Positions 3,775-60,125 of a stretch of DNA of 64,000 nt are shown here, piece after piece. The stretch is taken from assembly GCA_020845475.1 (NCBI GenBank), contig JADLFN010000017.1:1-64000 (forward strand), written 5' to 3'. Made by a program: the position numbers and the translations under genes. Each line of letters opens with the position of its first letter. Position 1 is the first letter of the stretch. A model generated the notes under the pieces. The model had not been told where the DNA came from. It did no database searches and was given only the letters and a program-made list of their open reading frames with translations. This DNA comes from Planctomycetota bacterium (lineage in GTDB: Bacteria > Planctomycetota > UBA8742 > UBA2392).

Positions 3775-3784
3775 CCGCCCTGCA

Positions 3785-10156: not shown

Positions 10157-10221
10157 AATTCAAAATGCAAAATTCAAAATTCAAAATTGGCTCGGGCGCG
10201 CGCGGCGGCAATTTTGAATTT
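10157..10221. repeat. Heptamer array with complementary arm, inside pseudopilin leader
   Basis: Four units (TTCAAAA, TGCAAAA, TTCAAAA, TTCAAAA) cover 10159-10186. AAATTCAAAATTG (10177-10189) is perfectly complementary to CAATTTTGAATTT (10209-10221) across a 19-base GC-rich loop. The start codon at 10165 lies in the array, so the array and hairpin encode most of the prepilin leader. Confidence 0.9.
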
Positions 10222-10896
10222 GCGCGGCGCGGCTTTACGCTTGTTGAGCTGCTGATTGTGGTCGGCATCATTGTGGTGCTGGCGGCGGTGCTGGTGGTCA
10301 GCTTCAGCGGCGTGTTCTCCAAGCGCGACGACGCCGTGGCCAAAACCACGATCGAAACGCTTTCGGCCAACCTGCAGAGCTACCAGACCAAGTGGCATTC
10401 CTATCCCGTGAGCACGCTCGCGGCGCTGACGGCGCAAACGCGCCTGTCCATGCCCGTGACGGATCCCAACGACACGAACATGGGCATCGAAACGCTGGTC
10501 ATCGCCCTGCGCTCGAAGAAGAACGGCGGGCCTTACCTTGATGCCACGCTGTTCGGCAGCGACGACTTCCGCAAGAACCACGACGGCGACGAACTGACCG
10601 ACAACGCCTTTGAAGTGGAAGGTGCACTGGGCCTGTTTGAAATCGTCGATCCCTGGGGCACGCCCTACGTGTACATCAACATGAACGACGTGCGCAACGG
10701 CAGCGTGAAAGAGAAAATCCAGTTCGAGGACGGCAGCAGCGAAGAACTCAAACTCGACGAGCTGCAAGAGAAGTTGAAACACCCCACCACCGGCCAATAC
10801 CCGCAGGGCTACGTCATCTGGAGTTTCGGCCCGGACAAGAAAAACGACTACGGCCGCGGTGACGACATCACCAGCTGGCCCAAATACAGCGACTAG
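10165..10896 (+). CDS. GspG-like major pseudopilin
   Basis: This prepilin has a type III signal. The leader ends ARRG, followed by FTLVELLIVVGIIVVLAAVL, with Glu at mature position 5. The mature part has the GspG-type C-terminus: DPWGTPYVYI, then an SFGPDKKN..GRGDDI calcium-loop-like motif. The leader is about 23 residues and is largely encoded by the heptamer repeat. No other in-frame start exists between the upstream stop and the cleavage site, so this start is required unless a non-canonical codon is used. It is the last gene of the FHA-PilM-PilO-TPR operon. Confidence 0.85.
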   Translation: MQNSKFKIGSGARGGNFEFARRGFTLVELLIVVGIIVVLAAVLVVSFSGVFSKRDDAVAKTTIETLSANLQSYQTKWHSYPVSTLAALTAQTRLSMPVTDPNDTNMGIETLVIALRSKKNGGPYLDATLFGSDDFRKNHDGDELTDNAFEVEGALGLFEIVDPWGTPYVYINMNDVRNGSVKEKIQFEDGSSEELKLDELQEKLKHPTTGQYPQGYVIWSFGPDKKNDYGRGDDITSWPKYSD

Positions 10897-23739: not shown

Positions 23740-23761
23740 GGTTGCACCGGGTGGTTCGGTC

Positions 23762-38749: not shown

Positions 38750-38777
38750 TCAATTATCAATTGCCAATTATCAATTG
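38750..38777. repeat. Heptamer array before the first HSP100 gene
   Basis: Four period-7 units (TCAATTA, TCAATTG, CCAATTA, TCAATTG) lie 12 bases upstream of the ATG at 38737 on the minus strand. The unit CAATTG is itself palindromic, so the array can fold on itself. Confidence 0.88.
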
Positions 38778-40834: not shown

Positions 40835-40852
40835 GGGCGGCCCCCGGCAAAC

Positions 40853-40972
40853 CGATTTTCGATTGTCGATTTTCGATTTTCGATTGGCGCTCCCGCGCCA
40901 AAGTCATGCGCGCGAGGCTGCATTGGAGCGGCAGCTCCAATCGGCAATCGACAATCGACAATCGAAAATCGC
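40853..40972. repeat. Paired heptamer arrays with internal hairpins (CGATTTT / CAATCGA)
   Basis: The left array CGATTTT, CGATTGT, CGATTTT, CGATTTT, CGATTGG (40853-40887) is nearly complementary over its full length to the right array CAATCGG, CAATCGA x3, AAATCGC (40938-40972). Between them are TTGGCGC-TCCC-GCGCCAA (40884-40901) and ATTGGAGC-GGCA-GCTCCAAT (40922-40941). The left half is nearly identical to the element at 54227. Confidence 0.93.
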
Positions 40973-40983
40973 ATCGCGTTTAC

Positions 40984-42144
40984 CTAACTCTTGAACACAA
41001 TCGCCGGCTCCAAACGAAACACCTTGTAAAGGCTCAACATGGACGTCAGGGCGCAGATCAGCAGCACCGCCGCGGCCGTAATCACCAGCAATTGCCACGG
41101 CAGCAAGAACGCCAGCTCGGTGTTGCGGGCCGCAAAGCCCACAAAGGCCGCCATGCCCACACCCAGGCCGTATCCGATGGCGCCCACGGTCAGCGATTGC
41201 AGCAGGATCATGCGCAGAAGCGTGAAGTTGGAAGCGCCCATGGCCTTGAGCGCGCCGAAGTACTTCAGGTTGTCGAGCGTGAAGTTGTAGAAGGTCTGGC
41301 CCGCGATAGCCGTGCCCACCAGAAAGCCCAGCACCACGGCAATGCCGAAATTGATCGGGATGCCCGTGTACTTCATGAAGTAGCTGACGGTCGTCTCTTT
41401 GAAGCTCTGGGTGGTCTTGGCTTCAAGCCCGGTTTCGCTCCTTATGCGCGCGCAGAGTTCTACAATCGGCTGGCCGTCCTTGGCCTTGACCAGGATGAAC
41501 GAAAGCAGCTTGCGCTCCTTGGGCGCAAACGTGGTCGCACGCGAGTAGGTCGTGTAGATAAAGGGCTGGCTTTGGAACGTGCGCGAGACGCGGCATATGC
41601 CGACCACAATGGCGCGGTGGTCGTTGAGTTCAATGGTGTCGCCCACCTTGAGCGGCACCGGCTGGCCCCCCGGCTCTTTGGGCCCCTTGGCCAGCTTGCC
41701 GATGGCGCCGTTTTCATCGACGATAATGCCGTCGGCCTTGCGCAGGTCTTCGAGTTTGCCCTCGAGCATTTCCGGCGGGCCGCCCATCAGCGTGGCATCG
41801 TCGAGGCCCACAATGTTGCAGGTCTGGAAGTTGCCGTTGTCGAGCCTTGCCTTGCTCAGGCCCTTGTAGATGGGCAACGCCCACTGCACGCCCGTAATGC
41901 CGCGCACGCGATAGAGCTCGGTATCTTGCAGTGGCTTGATGTCGTCAATGAACTGGACCTTGGAGTCCATGACCCAGACATCGCCCTGGCCGGTGTCGCT
42001 CAGGAAGCCGATCGTGCGGCCCATCAGGCCCACAAAGATCGCAAGCTGCTGTGTAATAAGGAAGGAGGCGAAGGTAATGCCGATCACGATGCCGAAGTAC
42101 TTGGCACGGTCACCCATCAGCATTTTCAGCGCGATGCGGTTCAT
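40984..42144 (-). CDS. FtsX-type ABC permease
   Basis: This protein of 386 residues has an N-terminal membrane helix (YFGIVIGITFASFLITQQLA), a large periplasmic domain, and three C-terminal helices including LLPWQLLVITAAAVLLICAL. This is the MacB/FtsX permease topology. Its start overlaps the stop of the TetR gene (ATGA), so regulator and permease are coupled. With the ATPase and adaptor downstream it forms a three-part exporter of unknown substrate; no outer-membrane TolC gene is adjacent. Confidence 0.85.
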   Translation of the reverse strand: MNRIALKMLMGDRAKYFGIVIGITFASFLITQQLAIFVGLMGRTIGFLSDTGQGDVWVMDSKVQFIDDIKPLQDTELYRVRGITGVQWALPIYKGLSKARLDNGNFQTCNIVGLDDATLMGGPPEMLEGKLEDLRKADGIIVDENGAIGKLAKGPKEPGGQPVPLKVGDTIELNDHRAIVVGICRVSRTFQSQPFIYTTYSRATTFAPKERKLLSFILVKAKDGQPIVELCARIRSETGLEAKTTQSFKETTVSYFMKYTGIPINFGIAVVLGFLVGTAIAGQTFYNFTLDNLKYFGALKAMGASNFTLLRMILLQSLTVGAIGYGLGVGMAAFVGFAARNTELAFLLPWQLLVITAAAVLLICALTSMLSLYKVFRLEPAIVFKS

Positions 42145-42773
42145 TTGCGCCTCGCGATAGTACGCAGCGCGGCCACCGAAAATTCCGTGACGTGCTGGGC
42201 GAGCGGCTCGATACCCTGGGCGGTCAATTTCAGTTCAGGCTCAAGGCGTTGCAGCACCGGCTGCGCGTGCCGATAGAACAGAATCTGCGCTACGACACTT
42301 CGCCCGCAGCGCTTGAGCGCGGCTTCAGGCAAGTCGGGGCCAGCAATATCTCGCAGGATTTCCGACAGGAGTTTGAACAGCGGGCGCACGTGCTGCTCGA
42401 CCTTTTTGTCGAGCACGCCTGTGGGCTCGGCCAGCTCACGCGCCATCAGGCGTCCGTGGCAGGCGGGCGCGCCTTCGGCGAAAAGACGCAAAAAGAACGA
42501 GCGCACAAAGGCGTGCAGACGCTGCTCGGGCGTTGCGCTTGCGGACAGCCCGCCATCGGGCGGGTATTTCTCAAGTGCAAGCTTGTAGCCTTGATCGAGC
42601 ACGGCTTCGTAGAGCGCATTCTTGTCGTGAAAGTGGTAGTTCACCGCGGCCAGGTTGGCACCGGCGAGCTTGCAGATTTCGCGAACGGTGGCCTTGGCAT
42701 AGCCGCGCGCGGCAAAGACTTCGCCTGCGGCTTCAAGCACGCGCTGGCGGGTGGCGATGTCGGAGGCGGTCAT
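42141..42773 (-). CDS. TetR-family regulator of the exporter operon
   Basis: This protein of 210 residues has the N-terminal helix-turn-helix TVREICKLAGANLAAVNYHF, the CecR-like version of the TetR motif, and a C-terminal domain of the type found in efflux regulators. It is the first gene of a colinear run (permease, ATPase, adaptor, three HSP100 genes), so it may control all of them. A candidate promoter overlapping a GTTTCAAAC palindrome lies immediately upstream. Confidence 0.85.
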   Translation of the reverse strand: MTASDIATRQRVLEAAGEVFAARGYAKATVREICKLAGANLAAVNYHFHDKNALYEAVLDQGYKLALEKYPPDGGLSASATPEQRLHAFVRSFFLRLFAEGAPACHGRLMARELAEPTGVLDKKVEQHVRPLFKLLSEILRDIAGPDLPEAALKRCGRSVVAQILFYRHAQPVLQRLEPELKLTAQGIEPLAQHVTEFSVAALRTIARRK

Positions 42774-42782
42774 TCAAGCGCT

Positions 42783-42811
42783 AGTATGAAACAGCCGTTT
42801 GAAACACGCAA
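42783..42811 (-). promoter_or_regulatory. Promoter and possible operator of the tetR-exporter-HSP100 block
   Basis: On the minus strand TTGCGT (42806-42811) and CATACT (42783-42788) are 17 bases apart. The spacer contains the palindrome GTTTCAAAC and a direct TGTTTCA repeat, consistent with autoregulation. Only about 9 bases separate the -10 from the ATG, suggesting a nearly leaderless transcript. Confidence 0.45.
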
Positions 42812-43144
42812 TAGAGAATCGGTTGTTCGCGAGCGACAAACCTTCAGCCGCGCGCAGGTCAATGTGTGTGAAACTTCAATCAATCGTGCCATGGCGCACA
42901 AATGGTACTCGCCAAGCGCGCCGTAACTCGTTATTCTTTGCGGCGTTCCATGAACAACCCAGTTCTGACATGTCAAAGCGTGGGGCCTTGGCGAGTCAGC
43001 ATCACAGCCCCGGGAATTTTTCTCCGAGGCAGGTGGAATATTCTGTAACGCGGGTCAGGTGTGCGCGGTAGTTGCTGTCCTTGGCTTTGTCCAAGGGTGC
43101 GGAGCGCACGGGTGAAGCAAGGACAAAACTGAGAGAGGGTGCAC
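42812..43144. other. Intergenic region with a structured leader, no gene
   Basis: About 330 bases separate the tetR promoter from the PPC-domain gene. The ORFs here (for example 42799..43071) lack a ribosome-binding site and protein-like composition. The last 70 bases can form alternative hairpins: CCTTGG (43079-43084) with CCAAGG (43091-43096), or TGTCCTTG (43076-43083) with CAAGGACA (43118-43125). A GTGC-GGAGC-GCAC stem lies in between. Confidence 0.5.
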
Positions 43145-43888
43145 ATGCGTAATCTTCTGGTTCTTTCAATCGCTGCAAACTTGTTCTTCATGTCGGCCGT
43201 GGGTCTGGCCTGGGGCTTTGGCAGCAGCGGTGCGCAGGCGCAGGAAGGCGCAGGCAAGCCGGCCATTGAAGAAGCCGCCAAGGGCAAAGAAGCCGCTTCC
43301 GGCCTGCAGATGATGCAAATGGCCTATGAGCTTGCGCGCTATGGCCGCGACACCAAGAACCCGGCTGCGCTGGCCATGGCTTCACGCATCCTGACCTCGG
43401 TCAAGGTCACCGAGCCCAAGGCGTTTGAAGGCAAGTTCAAGGACAGCAAGGATCCTGCCGGCACGGCCATGACGCCGGAAAGCCTGCTCGCCGAGGCCAA
43501 GGCCATGGCGGGCGACAGCGCCGCTCCGTTCATGGACGCGATTGCGGCCATGGGCATGAAGGGTCGCGGCCTTGAGCGTGGCGTGGCCCAGATCAAGGGC
43601 ATCACCGCTCCTGCTGCCTCGAAGGGCGCAGACGGCAAACTGGCTTACGGAGCAATTGGCGACAAGTTCACGTTCACCAAGGGCGAATACGCCGCGGTGT
43701 GGGTGGGCGGCGACGGCGGCACCGACCTTGACCTGTTCGTGGTGGACAAGGACGGCAAGATTGTCGCGGCGGATCAGCGCCCCGGCGATTCCTGCTGGGT
43801 TGAGTTTGTGCCCACCGATGGCGAGTATCAGGTACTGATCGTGAACTGGGGCAACAAGGCCAACAAGTTCAGCCTCGTGTTCAACTAA
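43145..43888 (+). CDS. Secreted protein with C-terminal PPC-like beta domain
   Basis: This protein of 247 residues begins with a signal peptide (NLLVLSIAANLFFMSAVGLA..GAQAQ). An Ala-rich helical middle region precedes a C-terminal beta-sandwich-like domain (DLDLFVVDKDGKIVAADQR..QVLIVNWGNKANKFSLVFN) like the bacterial pre-peptidase C-terminal domain. The ATG at 43145 has GAGAGAGGG upstream. The function is unknown. Its 5' leader may be regulatory. Confidence 0.7.
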   Translation: MRNLLVLSIAANLFFMSAVGLAWGFGSSGAQAQEGAGKPAIEEAAKGKEAASGLQMMQMAYELARYGRDTKNPAALAMASRILTSVKVTEPKAFEGKFKDSKDPAGTAMTPESLLAEAKAMAGDSAAPFMDAIAAMGMKGRGLERGVAQIKGITAPAASKGADGKLAYGAIGDKFTFTKGEYAAVWVGGDGGTDLDLFVVDKDGKIVAADQRPGDSCWVEFVPTDGEYQVLIVNWGNKANKFSLVFN

Positions 43889-43899
43889 CCCGACGGAGA

Positions 43900-43977
43900 G
43901 GTCAGGTTCAGGACAAGGTTCAGGCCCGGCATGCGCCAAGCGCGACGAGCCTGAACCCCAAGCCTGAACCTGAACCC
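43900..43977. repeat. Inverted repeat of CAGGTTC-type units after the PPC gene
   Basis: GGTCAGGTTCAGGACAAGGTTCAGG (quoted in parts: GGTCAGGTTCAGG, AAGGTTCAGG; 43900-43924) is nearly complementary to 43950-43977 (CCTGAACCCCAAG, CCTGAACCTGAACC). Unit spacing is mixed 6-7 bases. It lies just after the stop codon and may double as a transcript-end hairpin. Confidence 0.7.
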
Positions 43978-44042
43978 GCTTTTTCGACAACCATCCACCG
44001 GCCCCGCGCAAGCGGGGCGCAACCGTGAAGACAGAGGTCGCC

Positions 44043-46514
44043 ATGAAATACTTGCAGGCGCTGGTTCTTACCCTCTTTGCGTCGCTCCTGGCTGCGCTCG
44101 CGCTCAATCAACCCCAGGCTCAGGCACCCACAATCAAAGGTGAACGCACAAGCGCGCACCCGTCGCGCTTCCTGACTCAGGACACTTCGCAATGGAAGCC
44201 GGAAAGCCCCTACGATCTCTCCGGCGCCATGCCCAAAGATGAAGATGTGTCGCGCGCGATCGCCGAAGGCCTTGAGCTTGTGCTCTCGAAGCAGGACGCC
44301 AACGGCGGCTGGGACGAAGAGGACATCGCCTTTGGCCCGGGAAAGGATGGCATCTCCGCCACCGCCCGCCAGGCCGCGGACGCCGTCTCCATGACCGCAC
44401 TCTGCTGCATGGCGCTGCGCGCGCACGCCGGCTACGACCCCGAGCGCATCAACCCGGCCATCGAGCGCGGCGTCACGTTTGTGATGAACCAGGTGTTCCG
44501 CGGCCGACTGCGCCTGGATGTGTTCTATTCCTGCTGGCGCTATTCCATGGGCCTGCAACTGCTGGCCGAGGAATACCCGCGCTGCAAAGACGAAACTCGC
44601 AAAGCCGAAATGCAGACCTGCGCGCGCCGCATGGTCAACTCGCTCATGAAGCTGCAATTGAGCAACGGCGAAGCGCGCCTGCTCGATCGCATGGGCAAGC
44701 GCAACATCGCCGAGGGCGCATCCGTTTACCAGCTTCACGGCGTGCTGGGCCTGATTCTTGACGCTCCCACTGACACGGATTTCCGCGGCGGAGCCCCCGT
44801 CAAGGACATGTGGCGCGATGGCCCGGCCCACAAGGGCGGCGTGCAGATTGGCGACCGCATCATCGAGGTCGAGGGCCTGCGTATCGAAAACGCCGTCGAT
44901 TACTACACGGCCGAAGCCGAGTTCCTGTGCGGCCAGCGCGTGGCCCTGAAGGTCAAGCGCAAGGACGGCAGCACCGCTTCCGTGAGCTGCGATATCGCTC
45001 TCTCGTGGGCGGCCTACCTGGGCATGGAGGTCGGCGGCGACAAAGACGGCAAGCCGCGCGTGACCACGCTCTTCCCGCTCAGCCCCGCGCAGCAGGCAGG
45101 CGTGGCGGTGGGCGACATCGTGACGGAGCTGGGCGGCGTGGAAATCAAGACGCCGCAGGATTACTTCAACCAGCTCTACAAGCTGAAAATCGGCGAAGTC
45201 GCCACGATTACGATTCTGCGCGGCGAGGAATCGCTCAACGGTCAGTTGCAGGCGGTACTCGCACCGGAATCCGACCTGGGCATTTTCCTGAGCGAAGAAG
45301 ACTACTCCAGCGAGGCCGGCGTGCGCGTGGGCGATTCCATGATGCGCGGCCAGATGGGTGCCGCCTTTGAAGTGCCCGGCCCCGGCGGCGCGGCTTTGGG
45401 CATGAAGCCCGGCGACCGCCTCACCCACATCAATAACATTCCGATCCTGTTCCCGGAGCAGGCGCTGGCGTTTGCGGCGGCGATTCCAGCCGGCATTCAG
45501 GTAGCGGTGCGCTACACGCAGAACGGTAACGTCAAGGAAGGCGTGCTGGTCACGCGCGCGCGTTACTCGCCCGGCTCCCTGGGCGTGATTCTGGACGTTT
45601 CCGGCCCCATGGATCCGCCCAAGATCAAGAGCGTGCTCCAGAACGGCGCGGCAGCCAACGGCGGACTGAAGGCGGGCGACATCATTGTTTCAATCGCCAA
45701 CGTGAAAACGCCCACACAGGTGTTCTACACGCGCGTGATGGCCAAGTTCCTTGCTGGCGAAGTGGTCGATGTCGTGGTCAACCGCGGCGGCAAGCTGCTG
45801 ATGGGCAAAGTGGCGCTGGGCAAGGCCGACCGCGCTTTCACCGATGTTGAAGAAGGCGGCTGGAGCTATTACCCCTTCGTCGGCGAAAGCATGACGTTCG
45901 TGACCTCCACGACACTCATGGCGCTTTACGACGCCGGCAACGTGCTGGGTGTGAAAGCGCCAGTGCTTGCGATCAAGGCCGCCGAGGCCATGGTCAACGG
46001 CCTGCGCTGCCTCGATATCAACGACGGCGTGAGTGAGACTTACGCGTACCGTCGCGGCGAGATTGAAGGCGGCGCGCTGGGCGGGGCCAAGCGCCCGGGT
46101 TCCAACCGCTACTTCATTGACCAGCGCGGCTGCATGGGCCGCAACAGCGTGTGCGAACTGGCCATGGTGCGCGCGGGCAAGCGCAGCAAAGCCGATCTTG
46201 AAAAGACGCTGCAGAACTGGCTCAAGAACCGCCCGGAGCTGGACAAAGTTCGCAACTTCCCCGGCACGCACTACCAGCAGCTATACAACAACGCGGCCTA
46301 CTACTGGCTGTTTGGCCACCTGTATTCGCTCAAGGCGGCACGCGAAGTCGGCGGCGCAACCTACGACAAAGTGAACGAAACCGTGGTCAAGGCCCTGATG
46401 CTCAAGCGCGAGAAAACCGGCGGCTGGCTGCATCACGCGGCGTTTGGCAAGACCTGCGGCACAGCCATGGCGCTGCTGGCGCTGGGCGAGTCCAAGGGCG
46501 GCTGGCGCAAGTAG
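44043..46514 (+). CDS. Secreted alpha/alpha-toroid protein split by four PDZ domains (copy 1)
   Basis: About 823 residues start with a signal peptide (LVLTLFASLLAALALNQ). Residues about 50-205 are prenyltransferase/squalene-cyclase-like toroid repeats (DANGGWDE, VSMTALCCMALRAHAG). Four PDZ-like domains follow (e.g. GVQIGDRIIEVEG, GVAVGDIVTELGG, GMKPGDRLTHINN, GLKAGDIIVSIAN). Toroid repeats then resume (VEEGGWSYYP, NNAAYYWLFG, TGGWLHHAAFGKTCGTAMAL). The PDZ array thus looks inserted into one toroid. An adjacent paralogue shares the whole layout. The likely role is peptide or polymer binding outside the cytoplasm; no catalytic site is seen. ATG at 44043 has AGGT upstream. Confidence 0.75.
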   Translation: MKYLQALVLTLFASLLAALALNQPQAQAPTIKGERTSAHPSRFLTQDTSQWKPESPYDLSGAMPKDEDVSRAIAEGLELVLSKQDANGGWDEEDIAFGPGKDGISATARQAADAVSMTALCCMALRAHAGYDPERINPAIERGVTFVMNQVFRGRLRLDVFYSCWRYSMGLQLLAEEYPRCKDETRKAEMQTCARRMVNSLMKLQLSNGEARLLDRMGKRNIAEGASVYQLHGVLGLILDAPTDTDFRGGAPVKDMWRDGPAHKGGVQIGDRIIEVEGLRIENAVDYYTAEAEFLCGQRVALKVKRKDGSTASVSCDIALSWAAYLGMEVGGDKDGKPRVTTLFPLSPAQQAGVAVGDIVTELGGVEIKTPQDYFNQLYKLKIGEVATITILRGEESLNGQLQAVLAPESDLGIFLSEEDYSSEAGVRVGDSMMRGQMGAAFEVPGPGGAALGMKPGDRLTHINNIPILFPEQALAFAAAIPAGIQVAVRYTQNGNVKEGVLVTRARYSPGSLGVILDVSGPMDPPKIKSVLQNGAAANGGLKAGDIIVSIANVKTPTQVFYTRVMAKFLAGEVVDVVVNRGGKLLMGKVALGKADRAFTDVEEGGWSYYPFVGESMTFVTSTTLMALYDAGNVLGVKAPVLAIKAAEAMVNGLRCLDINDGVSETYAYRRGEIEGGALGGAKRPGSNRYFIDQRGCMGRNSVCELAMVRAGKRSKADLEKTLQNWLKNRPELDKVRNFPGTHYQQLYNNAAYYWLFGHLYSLKAAREVGGATYDKVNETVVKALMLKREKTGGWLHHAAFGKTCGTAMALLALGESKGGWRK

Positions 46515-46538
46515 TAGAAGTGGCGGCATTGCAATCAG

Positions 46539-46582
46539 ACGGGGCCAGGCACCGCAGTGGTTCGGAGCCGGGCCCCGTTTCC
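46539..46582 (+). terminator. Hairpin after toroid-PDZ gene copy 1
   Basis: ACGGGGCC (46539-46546) pairs with GGCCCCGT (46571-46578) followed by TTCC, with a 24-base apical region that can form its own small stem. A terminator or attenuator between the two paralogues is plausible. Confidence 0.5.
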
Positions 46583-46635
46583 TTGCCCCACTGACCGCAT
46601 GACCTCAATGTTCGTGGAATTCGGATGGAATCACC

Positions 46636-49056
46636 ATGACTCGCCTTCAACTGGAGCTGATTACCGTCGGCGCGCTTGCACTATGCATGTGGGCGCTTAC
46701 AGTTCCCCCACCCGCCGCCAAAGACGCGCCGGCTCTTCGCCCCGCACACAGTGAGCCGCGCCGGCTGATGCAGGGCGCACCCGACGGCGTGGCCTGGAAA
46801 CCGCAGGACCCCTTTGATCTTTCCGGCCCCATGCCCGGCGACGCCGAAGTCAAGTCGGCCATCACGCGCGGCATTGATTTTCTGCTTGAACGACAACGCG
46901 CCGATGGCGCCTGGGATGAACAACTGACGGGCACTATGCTCTCTGTCGTAGCTGCGCAAGCGCTGGACGCCGTCAGTCTCACGGCCCTGTGCGGCATGGC
47001 GCTGCGTGCACATGGGGGCCGCGACAAGCGCATGGACGCAGCGCTCGACAAAGCGGTTTCGTTCATTCTGGCGCAGGTGTTCCGCGGCAAGTTGCCGCTC
47101 AAGGTCTATTACGCCAACTGGCGCTACACTTACGGGCTGCAGTTCCTTGTCGGCGAGTTCCAGGCGGGCACCGCGCGCAAGCCGGAAATCAAGGCGGCCA
47201 TGCGCCGCATGGTCAACGCGCTGCTCCAGATGCAGCTCTCCAATGGCGAGGCCAACCTTCTCGACAAGGCCAAAGCCGCGCGCATTGACGCCAATGTGCA
47301 GTTCAAGCGAGTGCCGGGAAATCTCGGGTTGGCTCTCGCCGTGCCCAGCGACGGCGATTACCGCGGCGGCGCGCAGGTGATGGAGGTACTTGAAGGCGGC
47401 GCGGCTGCGGCGGCCGGCGTCAAGGCCCAAGATCGCGTCATCGAATGCGAGGGCGTGCACATCGAGAACGCACTGGATTACTACACGCTTGAGCAGGACT
47501 TTCTGCGCGGCCAGACAATCGCGCTGAAACTGCTGCGCGCCGGCAAATTCCTGGACGTGCAATGCACGATTGAAAAAGTCTGGCCCGCGTACTTCGGCAT
47601 GGAGGTGGGCGGCGGCAAGGGGCCCAGCACGGAAGTGGTGCAGTTTCTCGGGCTTTCGCCTGCCGAAAAAGCCGGGCTGAAAGTCGGCGACGTAATCACG
47701 GCGCTGGATGACGCGCCGATCAGCTCCAGTGCCGAATTCTACGGGCGGCTTGCGGCAATCAAGGAAGACACCAAGGTCAAGTTCAGCTTTACGCGCGAGG
47801 GCAAGGCGATGACCCTGGACGTGGAAGCCGTGCGCGCGCCGGAAGCGGATCTCGCCATTTATCTCGCTGCGGAGGACGTTGCGCTCGATGAGGGCATTCT
47901 GGTGGGAGATTCTGTCGTCCGGCCTCAGCCCGGCCCTGTGGTTCCTGGCCCCGGTGGCGCAGCCCTGGGCATGAAGCCCGGAGACCGCGTGTGCAAGATC
48001 AACGGCATCCCCGTTTTCGCCATTGAGCTATTTGAGGGACAGTGCGCGGCATTTCCCGCCGGGGTTCCGCTTCGCGTCGAGTGGCTGCATCAGGGTGTGC
48101 GCAAGTCCGGCACACTGGTGCCGCGCGCGCGCAAACTGCCCGGGTCGCTGGGTGTTGTGCTCGACATCAACGAGCCGCACGATCCGCCCGTGGTGAAGGC
48201 GCTGGTGCCTGACGGGCCGGCCGCGCTGGCCGGCATCAGGCCGGGCGACACGATCATGGACATCAACGGCATCAGCGTGCCTACGCACGTCTTCTTTGCG
48301 CGCGTGATGGCGCGGTTCTACGCGGGCGAAGAAGTCATGGTCAACGTGTCGCGGGGCCGCAATATCATCTCGGGCCGGATACGTCTCGGCAAGGCCAATG
48401 CCGCGTTCACCGACGTCGAGGAAGGCGGCTGGAGCTACTACCCTGACCTCGGCGAGAGCATGAGCTTCTCCACGGCGGCCGCGCTGCTGACGCTCTATGA
48501 CACAGCGGCGGCCACGAAAATTGTGGCGCCCAAAGCGGCGCTGCAGGCCGCGGAAAATCTCGTGGATTCCCTGCGCGTGGAGGATCCCTCGCGGCCCGGA
48601 GTGTTCTCGTATCACTATCGGCGTTCGTTGCAGACCAAAGACCTGGGCGGCTACAACAGCGACGTGCGCGGCTCGCTGGGCCGGCTGGCGCTGTGCGAAC
48701 TGTGCCTGCTGCGCGCCAAGCGCCGCACGCCGGCCGAAGTTGAGAAATCACTGCGGACCTGGATGGACTTGCGCGGCGAACTTGACCGCGTGCGCGATTA
48801 CCCTTACACGCACCTGACCCAGCTCTGGAACAACGCCGCCTACTATTGGCTGTTCGGGCATTGGTACGCCATGAAGGCCGCGCGCGAGGTGGGCGGAAAA
48901 GTGTGCGAAAGCATGAATGAAATTGTGGTCAAAGCGCTGATGGTCAAGCGCGAAAAGGACGGCACCTGGCTGCATCACGAAAGCTTCGGAAAGACCTGCG
49001 GCACGGCCATGGCGCTGCTGGCGCTGGGCGAAACGCAAGGCGGTTGGCGCAAGTGA
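46636..49056 (+). CDS. Secreted alpha/alpha-toroid protein split by PDZ domains (copy 2)
   Basis: This protein of 806 residues is paralogous to the preceding gene along its length. It has a signal peptide (LITVGALALCMWALTV), DPFDLSGPMPGDAEVKSAI, toroid repeats (RADGAWDEQ, VSLTALCGMALRAHGG), PDZ motifs (GVKAQDRVIECEG, GLKVGDVITALDD, GMKPGDRVCKING, GIRPGDTIMDING), then VEEGGWSYYPDLGESMSF and GTWLHHESFGKTCGTAMAL. The identical split-toroid layout in both copies shows the domain insertion predates the tandem duplication. The ATG at 46636 has GGATGGA upstream. Confidence 0.75.
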   Translation: MTRLQLELITVGALALCMWALTVPPPAAKDAPALRPAHSEPRRLMQGAPDGVAWKPQDPFDLSGPMPGDAEVKSAITRGIDFLLERQRADGAWDEQLTGTMLSVVAAQALDAVSLTALCGMALRAHGGRDKRMDAALDKAVSFILAQVFRGKLPLKVYYANWRYTYGLQFLVGEFQAGTARKPEIKAAMRRMVNALLQMQLSNGEANLLDKAKAARIDANVQFKRVPGNLGLALAVPSDGDYRGGAQVMEVLEGGAAAAAGVKAQDRVIECEGVHIENALDYYTLEQDFLRGQTIALKLLRAGKFLDVQCTIEKVWPAYFGMEVGGGKGPSTEVVQFLGLSPAEKAGLKVGDVITALDDAPISSSAEFYGRLAAIKEDTKVKFSFTREGKAMTLDVEAVRAPEADLAIYLAAEDVALDEGILVGDSVVRPQPGPVVPGPGGAALGMKPGDRVCKINGIPVFAIELFEGQCAAFPAGVPLRVEWLHQGVRKSGTLVPRARKLPGSLGVVLDINEPHDPPVVKALVPDGPAALAGIRPGDTIMDINGISVPTHVFFARVMARFYAGEEVMVNVSRGRNIISGRIRLGKANAAFTDVEEGGWSYYPDLGESMSFSTAAALLTLYDTAAATKIVAPKAALQAAENLVDSLRVEDPSRPGVFSYHYRRSLQTKDLGGYNSDVRGSLGRLALCELCLLRAKRRTPAEVEKSLRTWMDLRGELDRVRDYPYTHLTQLWNNAAYYWLFGHWYAMKAAREVGGKVCESMNEIVVKALMVKREKDGTWLHHESFGKTCGTAMALLALGETQGGWRK

Positions 49057-49142
49057 CGCGCTGGGTGCCCAGGCCATGAGTTTGGCGCTACAATCAGCCA
49101 TGAAGCGCGGCCAGTTTTCTAACCCAGCGAGTCAGCCCGAAA

Positions 49143-50459
49143 ATGATCGCCACCGCCAAATCCGGCCCCAAGCCCAAGTTCTCCACCGTTGCCTCCAGCC
49201 GGCTTGATGAACGCCGTTTTGAGGCGCGGCTGAGTTGCGGCATGAAGCTGGTGTTTGCGCCGCGCGCCGGCTTTGACAAGCGCCTGGCGTTTGTCGTCAG
49301 CGATTACGGCTCGCTTGATCGCGAGTGGTACAACGCCGGCAAACACGTGCTCGTACCTGACGGTATTGCGCACTTTCTTGAGCACCAGTTGTTCAAGAAG
49401 CAGCGCGGCGACATGACCGACGAATTCTCCAAGCGCGGCGCCTACACCAATGCGCATACCAGCCACACCATGACCGCGTTCTATTTCGAGTGCGTGCAGC
49501 ACTTCGAGGAGAACCTGGCCACGCTGCTGGAGATGACGCTGACCTCGTGGTTTGATCCGAAACTGGTCAACACCGAGCGCGACATCATCATCCAGGAAAT
49601 CAACCAGTACCGCGACAACGCCAACTGGGTGGGCTACCAGCAACTGCTCGAAACGCTGTACGTCAAATATCCGTTGCGCGTGGACATTGCCGGCACGGCT
49701 GAAACGGTCAGCGCGATCACGCCCGAGCTTCTCTCGCTTTGCCACGCCACGTTCTATCACCCGACCAACCTTACGCTCGTGGTCACGGGAGATTTCGAGC
49801 CCGCCGAACTGCTTGAACTGGCCGATGCCACCGCCTCGCGCTTTGCGCCCGCCACAGAAGCGCCGCGCCTCGAGCGCGTGCGGCCGCACGAGCCCCCGAA
49901 CGTCACACGGCCGCGAAGCGAAAGGCGCATGACATTGGCGCGGCCACGCTTGCTGCTTGGCTTCAAAGATCTCAAGGCGCGCGAAGGCAAAGAGCTGCTG
50001 CGCGCGGAGCTGGCCACGGCCATCGCTCTTGACGCCCTGTTCTCGCGCGAGAGCGAAGCCTACGAGCGCATGTACAACGCGGGTCTGGTCGGCGGCGATT
50101 TCGGGGCGGCGTTCCAGGCCGAGGCGGGCTTTGGCTACGCGATACTGGGCGGCGAAACCAGAGACCCCGCCGCCCTAGAGAACGAACTGCGCCAGACGCT
50201 GCAAACCGCGCGCGAAGCAGGCATTGCCGAAGAAGTGATTGAACGCAAGAAGAAGAAGTTCCTTGGTCGCTACCTGCGCAACTTCAACGACCCGGAAAGC
50301 ACGGCCTACAGTTACCTCAGCGCCATGGGCCAGCGCAGCGACCTGTTTGACTTCCCGGAGGTGCTTGAGCGCGTCGGGGGCAAGCACGTCAACGCCCGGG
50401 TGCGCGAATTCTTCGAGCCTTCAAAGAGCGCGTGCTCGGTGTTGCTGCCCATGGGTTAG
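49143..50459 (+). CDS. M16-family zinc peptidase (pitrilysin/PqqL type)
   Basis: This protein of 438 residues carries the inverted zinc motif HFLEH (H-x-x-E-H) at about residue 77, and the downstream ERDIIIQEI segment that supplies the third ligand Glu. A second M16 half follows (KARE.K..LLRAELATAIALDALF). It has no signal peptide, so it is probably cytoplasmic and degrades peptides. The length matches one-chain, two-domain M16 proteins of the YmfH type. Confidence 0.9.
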   Translation: MIATAKSGPKPKFSTVASSRLDERRFEARLSCGMKLVFAPRAGFDKRLAFVVSDYGSLDREWYNAGKHVLVPDGIAHFLEHQLFKKQRGDMTDEFSKRGAYTNAHTSHTMTAFYFECVQHFEENLATLLEMTLTSWFDPKLVNTERDIIIQEINQYRDNANWVGYQQLLETLYVKYPLRVDIAGTAETVSAITPELLSLCHATFYHPTNLTLVVTGDFEPAELLELADATASRFAPATEAPRLERVRPHEPPNVTRPRSERRMTLARPRLLLGFKDLKAREGKELLRAELATAIALDALFSRESEAYERMYNAGLVGGDFGAAFQAEAGFGYAILGGETRDPAALENELRQTLQTAREAGIAEEVIERKKKKFLGRYLRNFNDPESTAYSYLSAMGQRSDLFDFPEVLERVGGKHVNARVREFFEPSKSACSVLLPMG

Positions 50460-50512
50460 CCGCACCCTTTGCGGGCAAGTGTGGATTCTGGTTCAGGCCG
50501 ATGAGAGGGAAC

Positions 50513-51130
50513 ATGCTGCGCATTGCAATGCTCGCTGTCCTTTTTGCCGTGGCTGCCCCGCTATGCGCCAATCTGGCGCCGCCGCCGGACAACTACGAAG
50601 TGCTCTCGCCCAACGGCGAGTGGGTGCTCAAGGCGCATCGACGCCAGGCGGAACAACGCGTCTGCCGCGCCGGCAGCGAAAAGACGGAGTGGAGTTTCAA
50701 CATCGATGAGCCCGGCGAGCAGACATTCTATCTCTCAAAGGATGGCGGCACCGTTGCGGTTGTCGGCCCGTGGTGGTTCAAGAAGGGCGAAACGCCGACG
50801 GCCGCCGTGCGACTGGTGCGGCGCACGGGCATTTTCGCGGAGTTCGAGCATGACACGCTGTGCCCGAAGCTGGACAAATCAAAGAACAACCCGGGCTGGC
50901 TGTGGCGCAGCGAACAGAGCAGCAACGTGCTGATCATCAAGGCGCAGGATGGCACGTTGTCGCGCATCTCGCTCGAGACGGGCAAGCTGCTGGGCCAGGA
51001 GACTTACGAAATCCCGGCGGATTCCGGCTACTGCACCACCTCGCCCGCGCTCAGTTACGCCTTTGCTGCGCTGTTTGCCCTGCTGGGCGTGCTTTCGCTG
51101 CTGGTGCTGATGCGCCGGCGCGCCGCCTGA
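50513..51130 (+). CDS. Exported protein with C-terminal membrane anchor, unknown
   Basis: The ATG at 50513, with GAGAGGGA upstream, gives 205 residues with a signal peptide (MLRIAMLAVLFAVAAPLCA), a beta-rich domain opening PPDNYEVLSPNGEWVLKA, four Cys residues in the mature domain, and a C-terminal transmembrane helix (AFAALFALLGVLSLLVLM) with an Arg stop (RRRAA). The ORF start at 50432 would overlap the peptidase gene. No family is recognised. Confidence 0.7.
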   Translation: MLRIAMLAVLFAVAAPLCANLAPPPDNYEVLSPNGEWVLKAHRRQAEQRVCRAGSEKTEWSFNIDEPGEQTFYLSKDGGTVAVVGPWWFKKGETPTAAVRLVRRTGIFAEFEHDTLCPKLDKSKNNPGWLWRSEQSSNVLIIKAQDGTLSRISLETGKLLGQETYEIPADSGYCTTSPALSYAFAALFALLGVLSLLVLMRRRAA

Positions 51131-51193
51131 AGCTGACGCCACGGCCAACGGCGGTTATACTGCGCGCCCCTGCCTCGCCCTGAAATCGACGCG

Positions 51194-52717
51194 ATGAAGA
51201 GACTCCTGCCGCTCGTTCTGCTGCTCGCTGCGTGTGCCTCCGCTCCGCCCCAGAACGGCGGCGCGACTGACGTTCCGCCCGATACCGTCATGCGCGACGG
51301 CATTGCCCACAACAACGCTGAAGCTGAAAAGTTCATCGTGCGCAACCGTGACTTCAGCGCGGGCCTGATTGATTACGTTGACCCGCGCCGCGCCACGCTG
51401 ACTTCGCGTTCGCTCTCTGCCGAAAGCGTCGTGTTCCGCCTTGACCAGACCGGCGACACCAAAGAGTTCCACAAAGCAGCCATCGAGCGCGCCGCGGAGC
51501 TGGCGGTGAGCTATGCGTGGCCTGCGGCAATGATCGAGCAGGAGCAGGATCGCGAAGGCTACCTCGCTTACGTGCGCATCGAGAGCGTGGGCATGCCAAC
51601 GGGTGCAACGCGCGGCACCATGCTGCCCGTGCGCATCGTGTGCCTGGGAGATGCCGCAGATATCCGCGGCGGTTATCTTTACCCCACGCCGTTGAAAAAC
51701 TCGCTCGGCCGCACGATCGCCTTTTTTGAGGGCGGCTACCTGCCCGCAGCCCACGAACTGCCCGGAGAGCGTGAGGGCAAACCGGTCAAGAACCCGCTGA
51801 TTGACGCGCGCGGCAAACAGGTGATCGATCCCGAAACCAAGCAGCCCATGTGGGAAGAGGCGCTCGAGCGCCGCCAGAGCCTGGGCCGCGTCAGCTATAT
51901 TCTGCGCGAAGGCTTCCGCATTGCCGCCACCGTGCCCGACGAAGAGCTGTCGTCCGAATCCATCGAGCTGCCCATGGATCGAATCATCGACGCCGAACGC
52001 GGCAAGTATTTCCTGCCCGTTTCCGCCGACATGATCCCGGAGCTGATCCGCGGCGTCGAGTCCGCCATGGCCGAGCGCGGCATCAAAGTTAAGGCGGCCA
52101 CCGTGGGCACGCGTTCGCTGGTGGTGACGCCGCTGGGCGTGCGCGAAAAAACGCTCAAGGAGATTTTTGACGAATTGCAGCTCATTTCAATCACGTTCAA
52201 GCCGCGCAACAGCGTGATCATCGTGTTTGACGACGAGCGCCAGCGTGTGGTGCTTTACGGCCCGGTGGAGCGCCGCTTCTTGTTTGATGATGTCACGCTG
52301 GGCACCGATCCGTTTACGGTGGACGCCGTTGATCCGGTCACGCGCAAGCCGCGCCCGCCGCAGCAACTGCCCTTTCGCGTGACGTGCCGGCTGGTGCGGC
52401 GAGCGAGCCCCGGCAGGTCGGGCAAGTACGGCATTCCCACGCAGGCCGAAGTGGACGCGGGAATTCTGCCCGACGGCGACAAAGGTGCAGTGCGACTGTC
52501 CTGGACATTGCGAACACAAGAGCTTGACCGGGAGGGCGAGATCGAGCTGCCCTCTTCCGATATATCCGACATCCTGCGCTATCTGTTTGCGCAGGGCATG
52601 GGCCCGCGCGAAGTGGTGGGCTTTTGCGTCGTGGCCAAGGATAAGCCGGCGCTGCTGGCCGAACTGGGTTTCAACCCCCGGCGCTTTCGCGACCCTGAGA
52701 ACCCCGAAGGCCGGTAA
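51194..52717 (+). CDS. Lipoprotein with flagellar P-ring (FlgI)-like domain
   Basis: This protein of 507 residues has a lipobox (LVLLLAACAS). An internal stretch, GTMLPVRIVCLGDAADIRGG followed by YLYPTPL, closely follows the FlgI pattern (V..LGDA.SLRGG.L..TPL), and later VPVSADMIPELIRGVESAM also fits. No flagellar genes are adjacent, and the C-terminal ~170 residues are not FlgI-like. It may be a ring-forming lipoprotein of another envelope machine. It ends before a strong terminator. Confidence 0.65.
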   Translation: MKRLLPLVLLLAACASAPPQNGGATDVPPDTVMRDGIAHNNAEAEKFIVRNRDFSAGLIDYVDPRRATLTSRSLSAESVVFRLDQTGDTKEFHKAAIERAAELAVSYAWPAAMIEQEQDREGYLAYVRIESVGMPTGATRGTMLPVRIVCLGDAADIRGGYLYPTPLKNSLGRTIAFFEGGYLPAAHELPGEREGKPVKNPLIDARGKQVIDPETKQPMWEEALERRQSLGRVSYILREGFRIAATVPDEELSSESIELPMDRIIDAERGKYFLPVSADMIPELIRGVESAMAERGIKVKAATVGTRSLVVTPLGVREKTLKEIFDELQLISITFKPRNSVIIVFDDERQRVVLYGPVERRFLFDDVTLGTDPFTVDAVDPVTRKPRPPQQLPFRVTCRLVRRASPGRSGKYGIPTQAEVDAGILPDGDKGAVRLSWTLRTQELDREGEIELPSSDISDILRYLFAQGMGPREVVGFCVVAKDKPALLAELGFNPRRFRDPENPEGR

Positions 52718-52729
52718 CGGCGAAAACAG

Positions 52730-52760
52730 CAGGGCCGCGATTGCTCGCGGCCCTGGGTTG
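52730..52760 (+). terminator. Terminator after the FlgI-like lipoprotein gene
   Basis: CAGGGCCGCGA (52730-52740) and TCGCGGCCCTG (52745-52755) form a perfect 11-bp stem with a TTGC loop followed by GGTTGTT. It sits 12 bases after the stop codon. Confidence 0.75.
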
Positions 52761-52825
52761 TTCGTTGTGCGGATCTCGCTTGAGGCTTTGCCGGCCCGCC
52801 GCGTTCCGCGCGAAGCGGCGCTGCA

Positions 52826-52894
52826 CTACTTCTTCTTGGCGGCCTTCTTCGCGGGTTTCTTCTTCGCTGCCTTCTTCTTGGTCTTCGTTGCCAT
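52826..52894 (-). CDS. 22-residue lysine-rich basic peptide
   Basis: This gene is too short for the ORF track. The minus strand encodes MATKTKKKAAKKKPAKKAAK and KK before a stop: 14 of 22 residues are Lys and most others Ala. It is preceded by AGGAGA at ideal spacing and by a 17-bp-spaced promoter at 52942-52970. The KKAAKK pattern resembles histone-H1-like bacterial DNA-binding tails, so nucleic-acid binding is plausible. The other frames through this stretch are Arg- or Glu-rich shadows. Confidence 0.7.
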   Translation of the reverse strand: MATKTKKKAAKKKPAKKAAKKK

Positions 52895-52941
52895 CTGCTT
52901 TCTCCTGTGAAAAGAAAAGGAAACACTGCACACCCACATGA

Positions 52942-52970
52942 AAAGTATCCTGTAAAGGGGCGTGCGTCAA
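52942..52970 (-). promoter_or_regulatory. Promoter for the lysine-rich peptide
   Basis: On the minus strand TTGACG (52965-52970) and TACTTT (52942-52947) are separated by 17 bases. Expected transcription start is near 52935, giving a leader of about 40 bases. Confidence 0.45.
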
Positions 52971-52995
52971 ATCATTGGAGTGAATTTTTTATCGG

Positions 52996-53011
52996 TCTTG
53001 ACACGTCAAGA
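52996..53011. promoter_or_regulatory. Palindrome TCTTGACACGTCAAGA
   Basis: A 6-bp-arm inverted repeat (TCTTGA-CACG-TCAAGA) lies 15 bases upstream of the lipoprotein gene at 53026 and contains a TTGACA box. It is a candidate operator shared with the divergent peptide gene. Confidence 0.4.
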
Positions 53012-53025
53012 CACTGCTCGAAGCC

Positions 53026-53649
53026 ATGAAAACGCTTTTCGTGATCGTGCTTTCTTCATTCGCGCTGCTTTGCGCGTCGTGCGCCGTCACGGGCAAACGG
53101 CCCGTTCTGCGCACGCCCGAGGACTCGCTGGGCGCCATGCGCAAGGCTTACGCCTCTGATGACAGCGGCCTGTTTCTGCACACGCTGGCCTCCGAGACGC
53201 TCAAGCGTTACAGCGAGCACACCATCCGCATCGGCTGGGGCGAACTGCGCCCACACCTGGGCAACCTGGTGGAGGAGGCCAAGGTCGTCGCTGTAAAAGA
53301 GTACGTCACGCCCGGGCGCGACAGCGCCGCCGATGACACGTTCGTGTGGCCGCCCGCCGGTGAGCGCGCGCGACGGGTGCGCCTTGCGTTGCGCGGCGCC
53401 GAAGAAGAATTTCTCTTCGTGAGTGAAACCGACCCGCCGCCTGAAAAAAGCAAGCAGGCCGCCGGCGTCTGGATCGGCAGTCGTTACTACACACGGCGCG
53501 AACACCGCGCGCTCAACACCTATGCGCAAGACGACGTGCCTGAAAAGGACCGCACGCACTGGCGCCTCGTGTTCCCGTTCTACCCGTTCCAGAAACAGGG
53601 CCAGATCGCGGCCATGCTCCAACAGGAAATCGCGCGTTCGCGCAAGTAG
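53026..53649 (+). CDS. Small lipoprotein of unknown function
   Basis: This protein of 207 residues has a lipobox (FALLCASCAV). The mature part contains LRTPEDSLGAMRKAYASDDS, a pattern seen in NTF2-like or periplasmic dosage proteins, then a beta-rich region and a C-terminal helix ending IARSRK. No family is assigned. It is followed by a terminator-like hairpin and the ccm cluster. Confidence 0.7.
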   Translation: MKTLFVIVLSSFALLCASCAVTGKRPVLRTPEDSLGAMRKAYASDDSGLFLHTLASETLKRYSEHTIRIGWGELRPHLGNLVEEAKVVAVKEYVTPGRDSAADDTFVWPPAGERARRVRLALRGAEEEFLFVSETDPPPEKSKQAAGVWIGSRYYTRREHRALNTYAQDDVPEKDRTHWRLVFPFYPFQKQGQIAAMLQQEIARSRK

Positions 53650-53713
53650 TCACTCTCGGCCACCGGCGGTTCCGCTGGCGGCGGCAAAGCGGGGCTGCTA
53701 TAAAGTGGACTGC

Positions 53714-53743
53714 CGGGGGGCGAAATTGGACGCCCCCGTTTTT
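53714..53743 (+). terminator. Hairpin with T-tract between lipoprotein gene and ccmE
   Basis: CGGGGGGCG (53714-53722) pairs with CGCCCCCG (53731-53738) with one bulged G and is followed by TTTTTGTT. It lies 13 bases before the ccmE start, so it could be a terminator or an attenuator for the ccm operon. Confidence 0.6.
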
Positions 53744-53755
53744 GTTGGAACAGCC

Positions 53756-54205
53756 ATGAACATCAAAATCGTTGCGGTCATCGTGCTGTTTGCAGTGGCG
53801 GTCGGTGCCGCGCTGGCGTTCACGTTTACGCAAGGCGGCATGGAATACCGCACGTTTCCCCAAGTCACGGGCAGCGAATACGGCGGCGAGCGCGTCAAGA
53901 TGAAGGTTCAGGTCATCAGCATTGAAAGCGCGGAGAACCCGGCCGTCTTCATCGCCGAAGACCTCGCGCCGGACGCCAACGATCCAAAAGCCAACTTCAA
54001 TGTGCCGCGCGGCAAGGGCAAGGTGATTTATGCCGCGCCCGTACCCTCGGGCTTCAAACTGGGCTGCCACGCGACACTCGAAGGGCGCTACGATGAGAAA
54101 AAGGGCGCGTTTGTGGCCACGAACATGCAGACGCAATGCCCCAGCAAATATGAAGGCCAGGAAACACCGGCGCTGAGTGAGAAGCCGGCAACAGGTACAC
54201 CGTAA
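53756..54205 (+). CDS. ccmE: CcmE, haem chaperone (Cys-type)
   Basis: This protein of 149 residues has an N-terminal membrane anchor (IVAVIVLFAVAVGAALAFTF) and an OB-fold beta-barrel domain. It ends in TQCPSKYEG. The haem-binding His-x3-Tyr of classic CcmE is here Cys-x3-Tyr (CPSKY), as in the variant system I described in archaea and some other bacteria. The ORF-track start at 53423 includes the upstream gene in another frame; the ATG at 53756 is correct. CcmF follows. Confidence 0.85.
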   Translation: MNIKIVAVIVLFAVAVGAALAFTFTQGGMEYRTFPQVTGSEYGGERVKMKVQVISIESAENPAVFIAEDLAPDANDPKANFNVPRGKGKVIYAAPVPSGFKLGCHATLEGRYDEKKGAFVATNMQTQCPSKYEGQETPALSEKPATGTP

Positions 54206-54226
54206 ACCACCAAGAGTTCCGCCATG

Positions 54227-54303
54227 CGATTTTCGATTGACGATTTTCGATTTTCGATTGGCGCTGCTGCGCCAAGGCGAGGGCGTGGACAATCGGCAAT
54301 CAA
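54227..54303. repeat. Heptamer array plus hairpin, twin of the 40853 element
   Basis: CGATTTT, CGATTGA, CGATTTT, CGATTTT, CGATTGG (54227-54261), then TTGGCGC-TGCT-GCGCCAA (54258-54275), then the reverse-complement units CAATCGG and CAATCAA (54290-54303) abut the ATG of ccmF. The first ~49 bases differ from 40853-40901 at only a few positions. Confidence 0.93.
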
Positions 54304-57390: not shown

Positions 57391-57488
57391 ATTCAAGATG
57401 CAGCATTCACAATGCAAAATGGGTTCGCCGCTGCGCCACCGCGCGCTGTGGCCTTCACGTTGCATTCTGCACTTTGCATTTTTCATTG
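57391..57488. repeat. Paired heptamer arrays spanning the ccmH start and signal peptide
   Basis: Left units ATTCAAG, ATGCAGC, ATTCACA, ATGCAAA (57391-57418) include the ATG at 57398. Right units TGCATTC, TGCACTT, TGCATTT, TTCATTG (57461-57488) are roughly complementary to them. The right array encodes the CILHFAFFIA core of the CcmH signal peptide. Confidence 0.88.
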
Positions 57489-57940: not shown

Positions 57941-57947
57941 CCGCCGA

Positions 57948-58011
57948 GATTCGAGTTTCGAGGTCCGTAGAAACTCCTCGAAGCCCGAAACTCGAAGCTC
58001 GAAACTCGAAT
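57948..58011. repeat. Heptamer arrays with complementary arms before the 110-residue gene
   Basis: GATTCGA, GTTTCGA (57948-57961) face CTCGAAG, CCCGAAA, CTCGAAG, CTCGAAA, CTCGAAT (57977-58011), which are reverse-complementary in unit. The last unit abuts the ATG at 58012. Confidence 0.9.
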
Positions 58012-58344
58012 ATGGACTACCTTATCATCATCCTGGCTGTGGCAGTGTCGCTGGCGATCACGTTCTGGCCGCTGCGGCGCGGCAAGCGCGTCTGGTTTGT
58101 CGGCGATGTTGAATCCGACCTGACCGTGGTGATCCGCGATCGCGAGGAAGCCCTGCGCGCGCTCAAGGACCTCGAGGAAGACCTGCTTGCGCGCAAGCTT
58201 TCCCGCACGGATTACGATCGCCTCCGCCCGCAGTACCTTGAGCGCGCCAAGGAATTGACGGTGAAGTACGATGAGACGCGCGAAAGGCTCGAAGCCGCGC
58301 GCAAGCGCGTGCTGGCGCAAGCTGCAGACAACGCAAAACTCTAA
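58012..58344 (+). CDS. Small membrane-anchored coiled protein of the ccm cluster (CcmI-like N-terminus)
   Basis: This protein of 110 residues has an N-terminal helix (YLIIILAVAVSLAITFWPL), a short GKRVWFVGD segment and a charged coiled coil (REEALRALKDLEEDLLARKL, then DYDRLRPQYLERAKEL). The E/D-rich helix after the anchor follows the CcmI/CycH pattern (E..AL.DL..D...GKL...DY..L). The tetratricopeptide part of CcmI is absent. The next gene ends in a similar segment. Confidence 0.65.
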   Translation: MDYLIIILAVAVSLAITFWPLRRGKRVWFVGDVESDLTVVIRDREEALRALKDLEEDLLARKLSRTDYDRLRPQYLERAKELTVKYDETRERLEAARKRVLAQAADNAKL

Positions 58345-58459
58345 ACGCAAAACGCAAAAGAAATGCATCAACTCACGGATGTTTCATCTCTGTCACAAGT
58401 GGCCAACCTCCCGATGCCACGACCGCGTTTTGCGTTTTGCGTTTTACGTCTTGCGTTGG
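58341..58459. repeat. Paired heptamer arrays around the start of the 552-residue gene
   Basis: Left CTAAACG, CAAAACG, CAAAAGA (58341-58361) overlaps the stop codon of the previous gene. Right GCGTTTT x3, ACGTCTT, GCGTTGG (58425-58459) is complementary in unit and encodes the signal-peptide core FAFCVLRLAL. The ATGs at 58363 and 58414 lie between the arms. Confidence 0.9.
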
Positions 58460-60072: not shown

Positions 60073-60090
60073 CCCAAAGGCAGGGCAACC

Positions 60091-60125
60091 GCGTTTTGCA
60101 TTTTGCGTTTTGTGTTTCGCATTGT
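60091..60125. repeat. Heptamer array before ccmA
   Basis: Five units (GCGTTTT, GCATTTT, GCGTTTT, GTGTTTC, GCATTGT) end 17 bases before the GTG start of ccmA. The unit matches the right array at 58425-58459. Confidence 0.9.

Follow-up and report, generated by a model that had tools for sequence, protein, structure and literature searches.

Dispersed palindromic heptamer elements in a Planctomycetota genome and their differently worded counterparts at the same sites in relatives

An excess of heptamers in bacterial genomes has long been noted, without a mechanism. Heptamer elements of the kind known from Xanthomonas and Geobacter form arrays of ~2 to 26 units. Those of Xanthomonas (GGGNATC) and Nostoc (GGGGA(C/T)T) are few-unit arrays found genome-wide, mostly between same-strand genes, and Xanthomonas has 70 to 75 convergent inverted pairs of GGGNATC arrays (PMC4692102). 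In Geobacter metallireducens, class 3 "global regulator sites" comprise five MTYCTGA heptamers in inverted pairs, a further element of four GGGACCG units is present in 49 copies, and the proBA spacer carries a different multicopy sequence in G. sulfurreducens (PMC2700814). Heptamer arrays of TAACTGA direct repeats lie just upstream of start codons in Beggiatoaceae (PMC4679880). Repetitive extragenic palindromes and bacterial interspersed mosaic elements (REP/BIME; GTAG and CGTC super-families) are short stem-loops in inverted pairs, extragenic, sometimes intragenic, and plausibly transcribed (PMC3733652). Rickettsia palindromic elements (RPE) occur in-frame in conserved proteins, with several families per genome (PMC10969869, citing Ogata 2000). 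Inverted heptamer pairs and in-frame palindromes are therefore already known. Here we describe, in a 64-kb stretch of a Planctomycetota genome (GCA_020845475.1, contig JADLFN010000017.1; hereafter the window), elements in which tandem 7-nt units build two arms, inverted relative to each other, on either side of a short centre that is often a GC-rich hairpin. These elements are dispersed copies; some are absent at orthologous sites within the genus, a few are unchanged, and elsewhere relatives carry differently worded ones. We sampled ~840 kb of the 4.27-Mb genome (G000), as numbered loci (L) plus the window, and compared sites with syntenic regions of two genomes of the same genus (G001 and G002, the sisters) and two of the same family (G004 and G010).

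As in Xanthomonas and Nostoc, few-unit heptamer arrays are dispersed here, and as in Xanthomonas they form inverted pairs. Theirs, however, belong to one G-rich, quadruplex-forming family per genome, whereas many non-G-rich families (e.g., AATCGAC, AATTCAG, CACGAAA) coexist here, and the centres here are often hairpins. In Xanthomonas, 83% of sites are kept between two species and the pair type is usually preserved, whereas here units are exchanged at kept sites. The Geobacter elements share the architecture, with five heptamers per inverted arm and locations both inside and between genes, and ATTCTGA and CTTCTGA, both within MTYCTGA, correspond by reverse-complement rotation to two of the families here; that genus, however, belongs to another phylum, its elements do not include CGATT, and its pairs were read as binding sites with no comparison for replacement. 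Beggiatoaceae arrays resemble those described here in lying just upstream of start codons but consist of one fixed heptamer, with one indirect repeat reported and no hairpin module. The RPE likeness is the in-frame palindromic insertion in conserved proteins, seen here in MnmG, a desaturase-like protein and ABC-F, but RPE are ~150 bp with a conserved family sequence, and the passage on them in PMC10969869 does not describe tandem heptamer arms. REP/BIME share the inverted-pair stem-loop architecture, the extragenic and intragenic placing and the plausible transcription, yet the modules here have no GTAG or CGTC foot on a 20 to 40-nt stem-loop, and REP have no 7-nt tandem arms. Inverted palindromes with a GTAG foot (GTAGCACGGGCCTCC...), REP/BIME-like, were seen at L142 8227-8303, L157 4069-4128 and L146 9994-10058; GTAG-footed palindromes gave 11 matches in the sampled sequence and none in the sampled sister stretches. 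We found no description in the open-licence literature of a genome that combines many heptamer families with unit exchange at kept sites, an absence that is weak evidence.

The original prediction drew attention to two loci 13 kb apart that share a module of heptamers and a hairpin, with the following parts.

40853..40885, plus strand: CGATTNN heptamer array, the left arm, T-rich on this strand
40884..40901, plus strand: hairpin TTGGCGC-TCCC-GCGCCAA adjoining the left-arm array
40923..40940, minus strand: hairpin TTGGAGC-GGCA-GCTCCAA, belonging to an inverted second module
40938..40971, minus strand: inverted CGATTNN array, the right arm (40853-40901 is 88% complementary to 40923-40971)
54227..54259, plus strand: CGATTNN heptamer array, lying between the ccmE stop and the ccmF start
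54258..54275, plus strand: hairpin TTGGCGC-TGCT-GCGCCAA
54289..54301, minus strand: short second arm ACAATCGGCAATC, ending 2 nt upstream of the ccmF start codon

The modules at 40853-40901 and 54227-54275 are identical at 46 of 49 positions. The first reads CGATTTT, CGATTGT, CGATTTT, CGATTTT and then CGATTGGCGC-TCCC-GCGCCAA; the second reads CGATTTT, CGATTGA, CGATTTT, CGATTTT and then CGATTGGCGC-TGCT-GCGCCAA. Mismatches were correctly placed in the loop and the second unit, where one unit-2 base and two loop bases differ. Three features had gone unmentioned: a third copy of the module, inverted at 40971-40923 and 21 nt from the first, making 40853-40971 a single 49+21+49 palindrome; the short second arm that follows the 54227 copy; and at least 10 heptamer arrays of other families in the window. 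With at most two mismatches, CGATTNNCGATTNNCGATT was found 11 times in the window, whereas 0.11 occurrences were expected. No T run of the kind that marks an intrinsic terminator follows GCGCCAA at 40901 or at 54275; one other array, at L144 5063, adjoins a terminator-like hairpin.

Three consecutive CGATTNN units, of which five of seven positions are constant and variation is confined to two, gave 56 exact overlapping matches genome-wide, compared with 0 for the reversed control pattern and with 2 and 5 in the two sisters. The reversed control (three TTAGCNN units) had 19 matches in G004, whose genus has thus expanded another heptamer family, and a further genome, G030, had 140 matches to three CGATTNN units, possibly a separate expansion of the CGATT family. 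The hairpin-bearing module, CGATTGGCGC-NNNN-GCGCC (hairpin GGCGC-NNNN-GCGCC), occurs five times in this genome (C8, C16, C17 twice, and C39) and has no copies in G001, G002 or G030, which bears out the proposal of dispersed copies. Flanks of the module copies are unrelated, with homology confined to the heptamers and hairpin. Because the module recurs five times and homology ends at these parts, the loci at 40853 and 54227 are copies of a module. Three copies have the unit order TT-Gx-TT-TT in common (x being T, A or C), an order expected in only ~2% of four-unit arrays from the counted unit frequencies; three copies alike in order and hairpin are hence hard to obtain by independent slippage, as had been argued from the shared hairpin.

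At orthologous sites, relatives presented the element as empty, conserved or exchanged. The ccmH junction reads TAGCCATG (TAGCC|ATG) in the sisters, where TAACC, a 69-nt CTCGAAR palindrome and ATG stand here, a spacer of 2 nt there versus 71 nt here. At two further junctions the genes of the sisters overlap by ATGA, and inserted sequence has opened the overlap here. Further copies and empty orthologous sites, on which the original prediction had been staked, were therefore both found. The permease gene flanking the 40853 spacer had no ortholog in the sisters. Conserved elements included the CGATT array at L142 9829-9860, identical over 32 nt in three species (G001 L166 8253, G002 L167 9245) although the non-coding DNA around it is largely unalignable among them. 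This array immediately precedes the start codon in a small gene (MVDHERQ...), for which reason its interpretation as a coding repeat was dropped, and it is the only clear sign that the sequence of an array is constrained. A GGTATC palindrome in the desaturase-like gene also keeps its unit number in G000, G001 and G002, and G004 has AATCCCC units at this in-gene site. Exchange was also apparent in MnmG (CGAGATT here, AGGGATC in G004, GGATTCA in G010), in a neighbouring gene's linker (L157 11372), whose unit differs among G000, G001/G002 and G004, and at the junction L157 15078, where four species share the layout of stop, array, loop, inverted array and ATG with three unrelated units: CACGAAA in G000 and G004, GCGGTTC in G002 and GAGTTAT in G001. 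Five of the six mappable G004 array sites, in-gene ones included, fall at array sites here. A strong period-7 array was present in 13 of 54 ortholog comparisons at element sites versus 1 of 28 at spacers without elements, and eight of the 13 belonged to another family (units judged by eye). An assembly artefact is unlikely, as several independent genomes have arrays at matching sites.

The class to which these elements belong was surveyed in a first array set of 446 kb, comprising the window and loci picked mostly for CGATT, and in a holdout set of 380 kb of contigs picked without regard to arrays. The first set held 70 period-7 arrays, whereas each of the other periods, multiples of 7 aside, gave 0 to 6; in the holdout the counts were 15 and 0 to 5, so that the window is unusually array-rich. 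Their units are unrelated (AATCGAC, AATTCAR, CACGAAR, GATACCY, AACCCAR, AACGCAA, CTCGAAR, TCAGAAG and others). An inverted partner lay within 200 nt for 47 of the 70 arrays but for none in shuffled and reversed controls, and 59 of the 70 were outside called genes, though genes make up 85% of the sequence. Both traits of heptamer elements, enrichment outside genes and inverted pairing, were thereby observed. Arrays occupy stop-to-start spacers or stand in frame in proteins, with single arrays in an MCM fusion. Period-7 arrays were also seen in public contigs found via CcmF from Acidobacteria, Chloroflexi, NC10/Methylomirabilota, Gemmatimonadetes and Planctomycetota; such arrays thus extend beyond this genus. 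RNA folding of 40835-40983 (minus strand) gave -80.4 kcal/mol; three window elements folded strongly (z -7.3 for this one, -5.7 and -4.1 for the others), and the junction L157 15078 gave z -2.1 to -5.2 in all four species.

Other heptamer elements in the window were as follows.

57405..57488, plus strand: inverted TGCAAAA-type element that supplies codons for the CcmH N-terminus (ATGA stop/start overlap in the sisters)
57945..58011, plus strand: CTCGAAR inverted element that fills the spacer between the ccmH stop and the next start (precise empty site in the sisters)
58329..58458, plus strand: AACGCAA inverted element spanning a stop/start junction and coding the N-terminus of open reading frame (ORF) 58363
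60091..60117, plus strand: single GCGTTTT array (flanking genes overlap by ATGA in the sisters)
3783..3980, plus strand: CACGAAR array of 28 copies, ending right at the ATG of ORF 3981
10157..10223, plus strand: AATTCAA array that encodes a pilin-like protein's leader and has a short inverted partner
20865..20899, plus strand: AACCCAR array, in frame in the MCM/MeaB fusion gene (linker)
21617..21648, plus strand: AATTCAG array, in frame in the MCM/MeaB fusion gene (no array in G001, G002, G004 or G010)
38750..38777, plus strand: TCAATTR array

In three pilin-like proteins (window 10165-10250; L146 4361 and 5167), AATTCAA elements supply the codons of the N-terminal leader, just ahead of the GFTLxE-type processing site. 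A separate perfect palindrome, GGGGCGACATATATGTCGCCCC, lies at 32653-32682 of the window and at L146 6117, L152 8676, L156 16275 and L157 ~11240; it has ~10 copies in the 840 kb sampled here (20 counts over both strands), one (2 counts) in 275 kb of G001 and none in the sampled G002 or G004 stretches.

We propose, at roughly even odds, that both loci belong to a population of small palindromes which spread by copying one onto another and replace each other at tolerated sites. Copying with replacement is favoured as the simplest account because it explains why the module is dispersed, why some orthologous sites are empty and why others hold exchanged units. Families would spread by element-to-element copying, through template switching or gene conversion primed by short repeats, which may replace both arms and the centre at an occupied site and occasionally capture a new one. 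Selection would let elements survive only at sites that tolerate ~30 to 120 nt, such as stop/start junctions and protein loops. In mRNA, the arms may pair into an intercistronic stem that begins right behind the stop codon and ends right ahead of the start codon; this would keep both codons physically close, so that co-translated operons could accommodate the insert, and through this stem some elements may adjust how strongly the downstream gene is expressed. More tentatively, the class may keep position and architecture between species, either as stop codon, heptamer arm, centre, complementary arm and start codon or as an in-frame protein loop, while the whole unit sequence is exchanged for an unrelated heptamer. 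Several observations weigh against copying with replacement. No copying intermediate, dimorphic strain pair or enzyme was identified, and the control set of element-free orthologous spacers was small (28 comparisons). The 32-nt identity of one array in three species is not predicted by pure neutrality. Folding was weak at 54206 (z -1.4), lacking at 60073 (z +0.5) and weak at some sister junctions (z -0.8 to -2.0). Neighbouring elements shared families no more than distant ones (6 of 33 versus 114 of 847, p 0.44), leaving local hopping unsupported, and local spread was rejected.

An unlikely alternative is that the arrays are ordinary heptanucleotide microsatellites that replication slippage created locally; template switching at hairpins would then have perfected the palindromes, and shared sequences would reflect a preference of the polymerase for certain units. 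Slippage would readily account for different heptamers at one site and for matching arms, is consistent with the strict period of 7 in unrelated sequences and many phyla, and accords with a literature link between heptamer excess and the polymerase footprint (PMC4692102). Against it stand the same 49-nt hairpin module at five loci and the ~10-fold fewer CGATT matches in sisters of similar composition. Nor is slippage fast, since unit number and order are unchanged between species at two loci; variation in unit number between close relatives, which defines variable-number tandem repeats, was likewise not observed at these loci in three species.

Mobilization of a non-autonomous transposon (a miniature inverted-repeat or REP-like element) by a transposase such as a REP-associated tyrosine transposase (RAYT) is improbable, despite the palindromic, dispersed elements, their lineage-specific expansion and eight Y1_Tnp matches in the genome, one of them in the window. 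The elements have many unrelated unit sequences and no common end, module homology stops at the heptamers and hairpin rather than at terminal inverted repeats matching an autonomous element, and no target-site duplication was found at 57941-58011, the sole usable empty site at base resolution. The window RAYT is bracketed by a different inverted repeat, CCGTGGGT...ACCCACGG, and true GTAG palindromes exist separately in the genome; RAYT mobilization was rejected on the former ground. The gene (23278-23787, minus strand) has inverted copies of the CCGTGGGT...ACCCACGG palindrome at 23155-23204 and 23794-23859, and another copy occurs at L151 14094-14161. Of the suggestion that the elements are mobile or gene-converted, transposase-driven mobility was not supported; gene conversion fits and is plausible, though unproved.

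Least probable is that the arrays are binding sites for a nucleoid or RNA-binding regulator, selected in place, as proposed for the Geobacter paired heptamers (PMC2700814) and Beggiatoaceae TAACTGA (PMC4679880): the constancy of five unit positions, the start-codon array that does not differ among three species and an A-rich sense near starts in the first set (28:6; Fisher p 1e-4, in a set enriched for CGATT loci) suit such sites, but many unrelated units per genome and replacement at the same site do not suit one sequence-specific binder, and orientation was not significant in the holdout (6:2 and 3:3). For full palindromes, family symmetry fixes orientation; the statistic is therefore confounded and was not used as evidence of function, and a rule placing the A-rich arm near starts was dropped.

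Because related genomes show the same site empty, conserved or differently filled, origins by slippage, transposition or conversion can be separated. Heptamer families should not each be taken for the binding site of a regulator. If position is kept while units are exchanged, a dedicated or unusually active process would rewrite both arms together, and the 7-nt period and pairing, rather than the sequence, would be maintained. If elements do replace one another, intercistronic palindromes would be kept for their shape and period, not their sequence, and MnmG and other conserved proteins would gain in-frame peptides from the elements.

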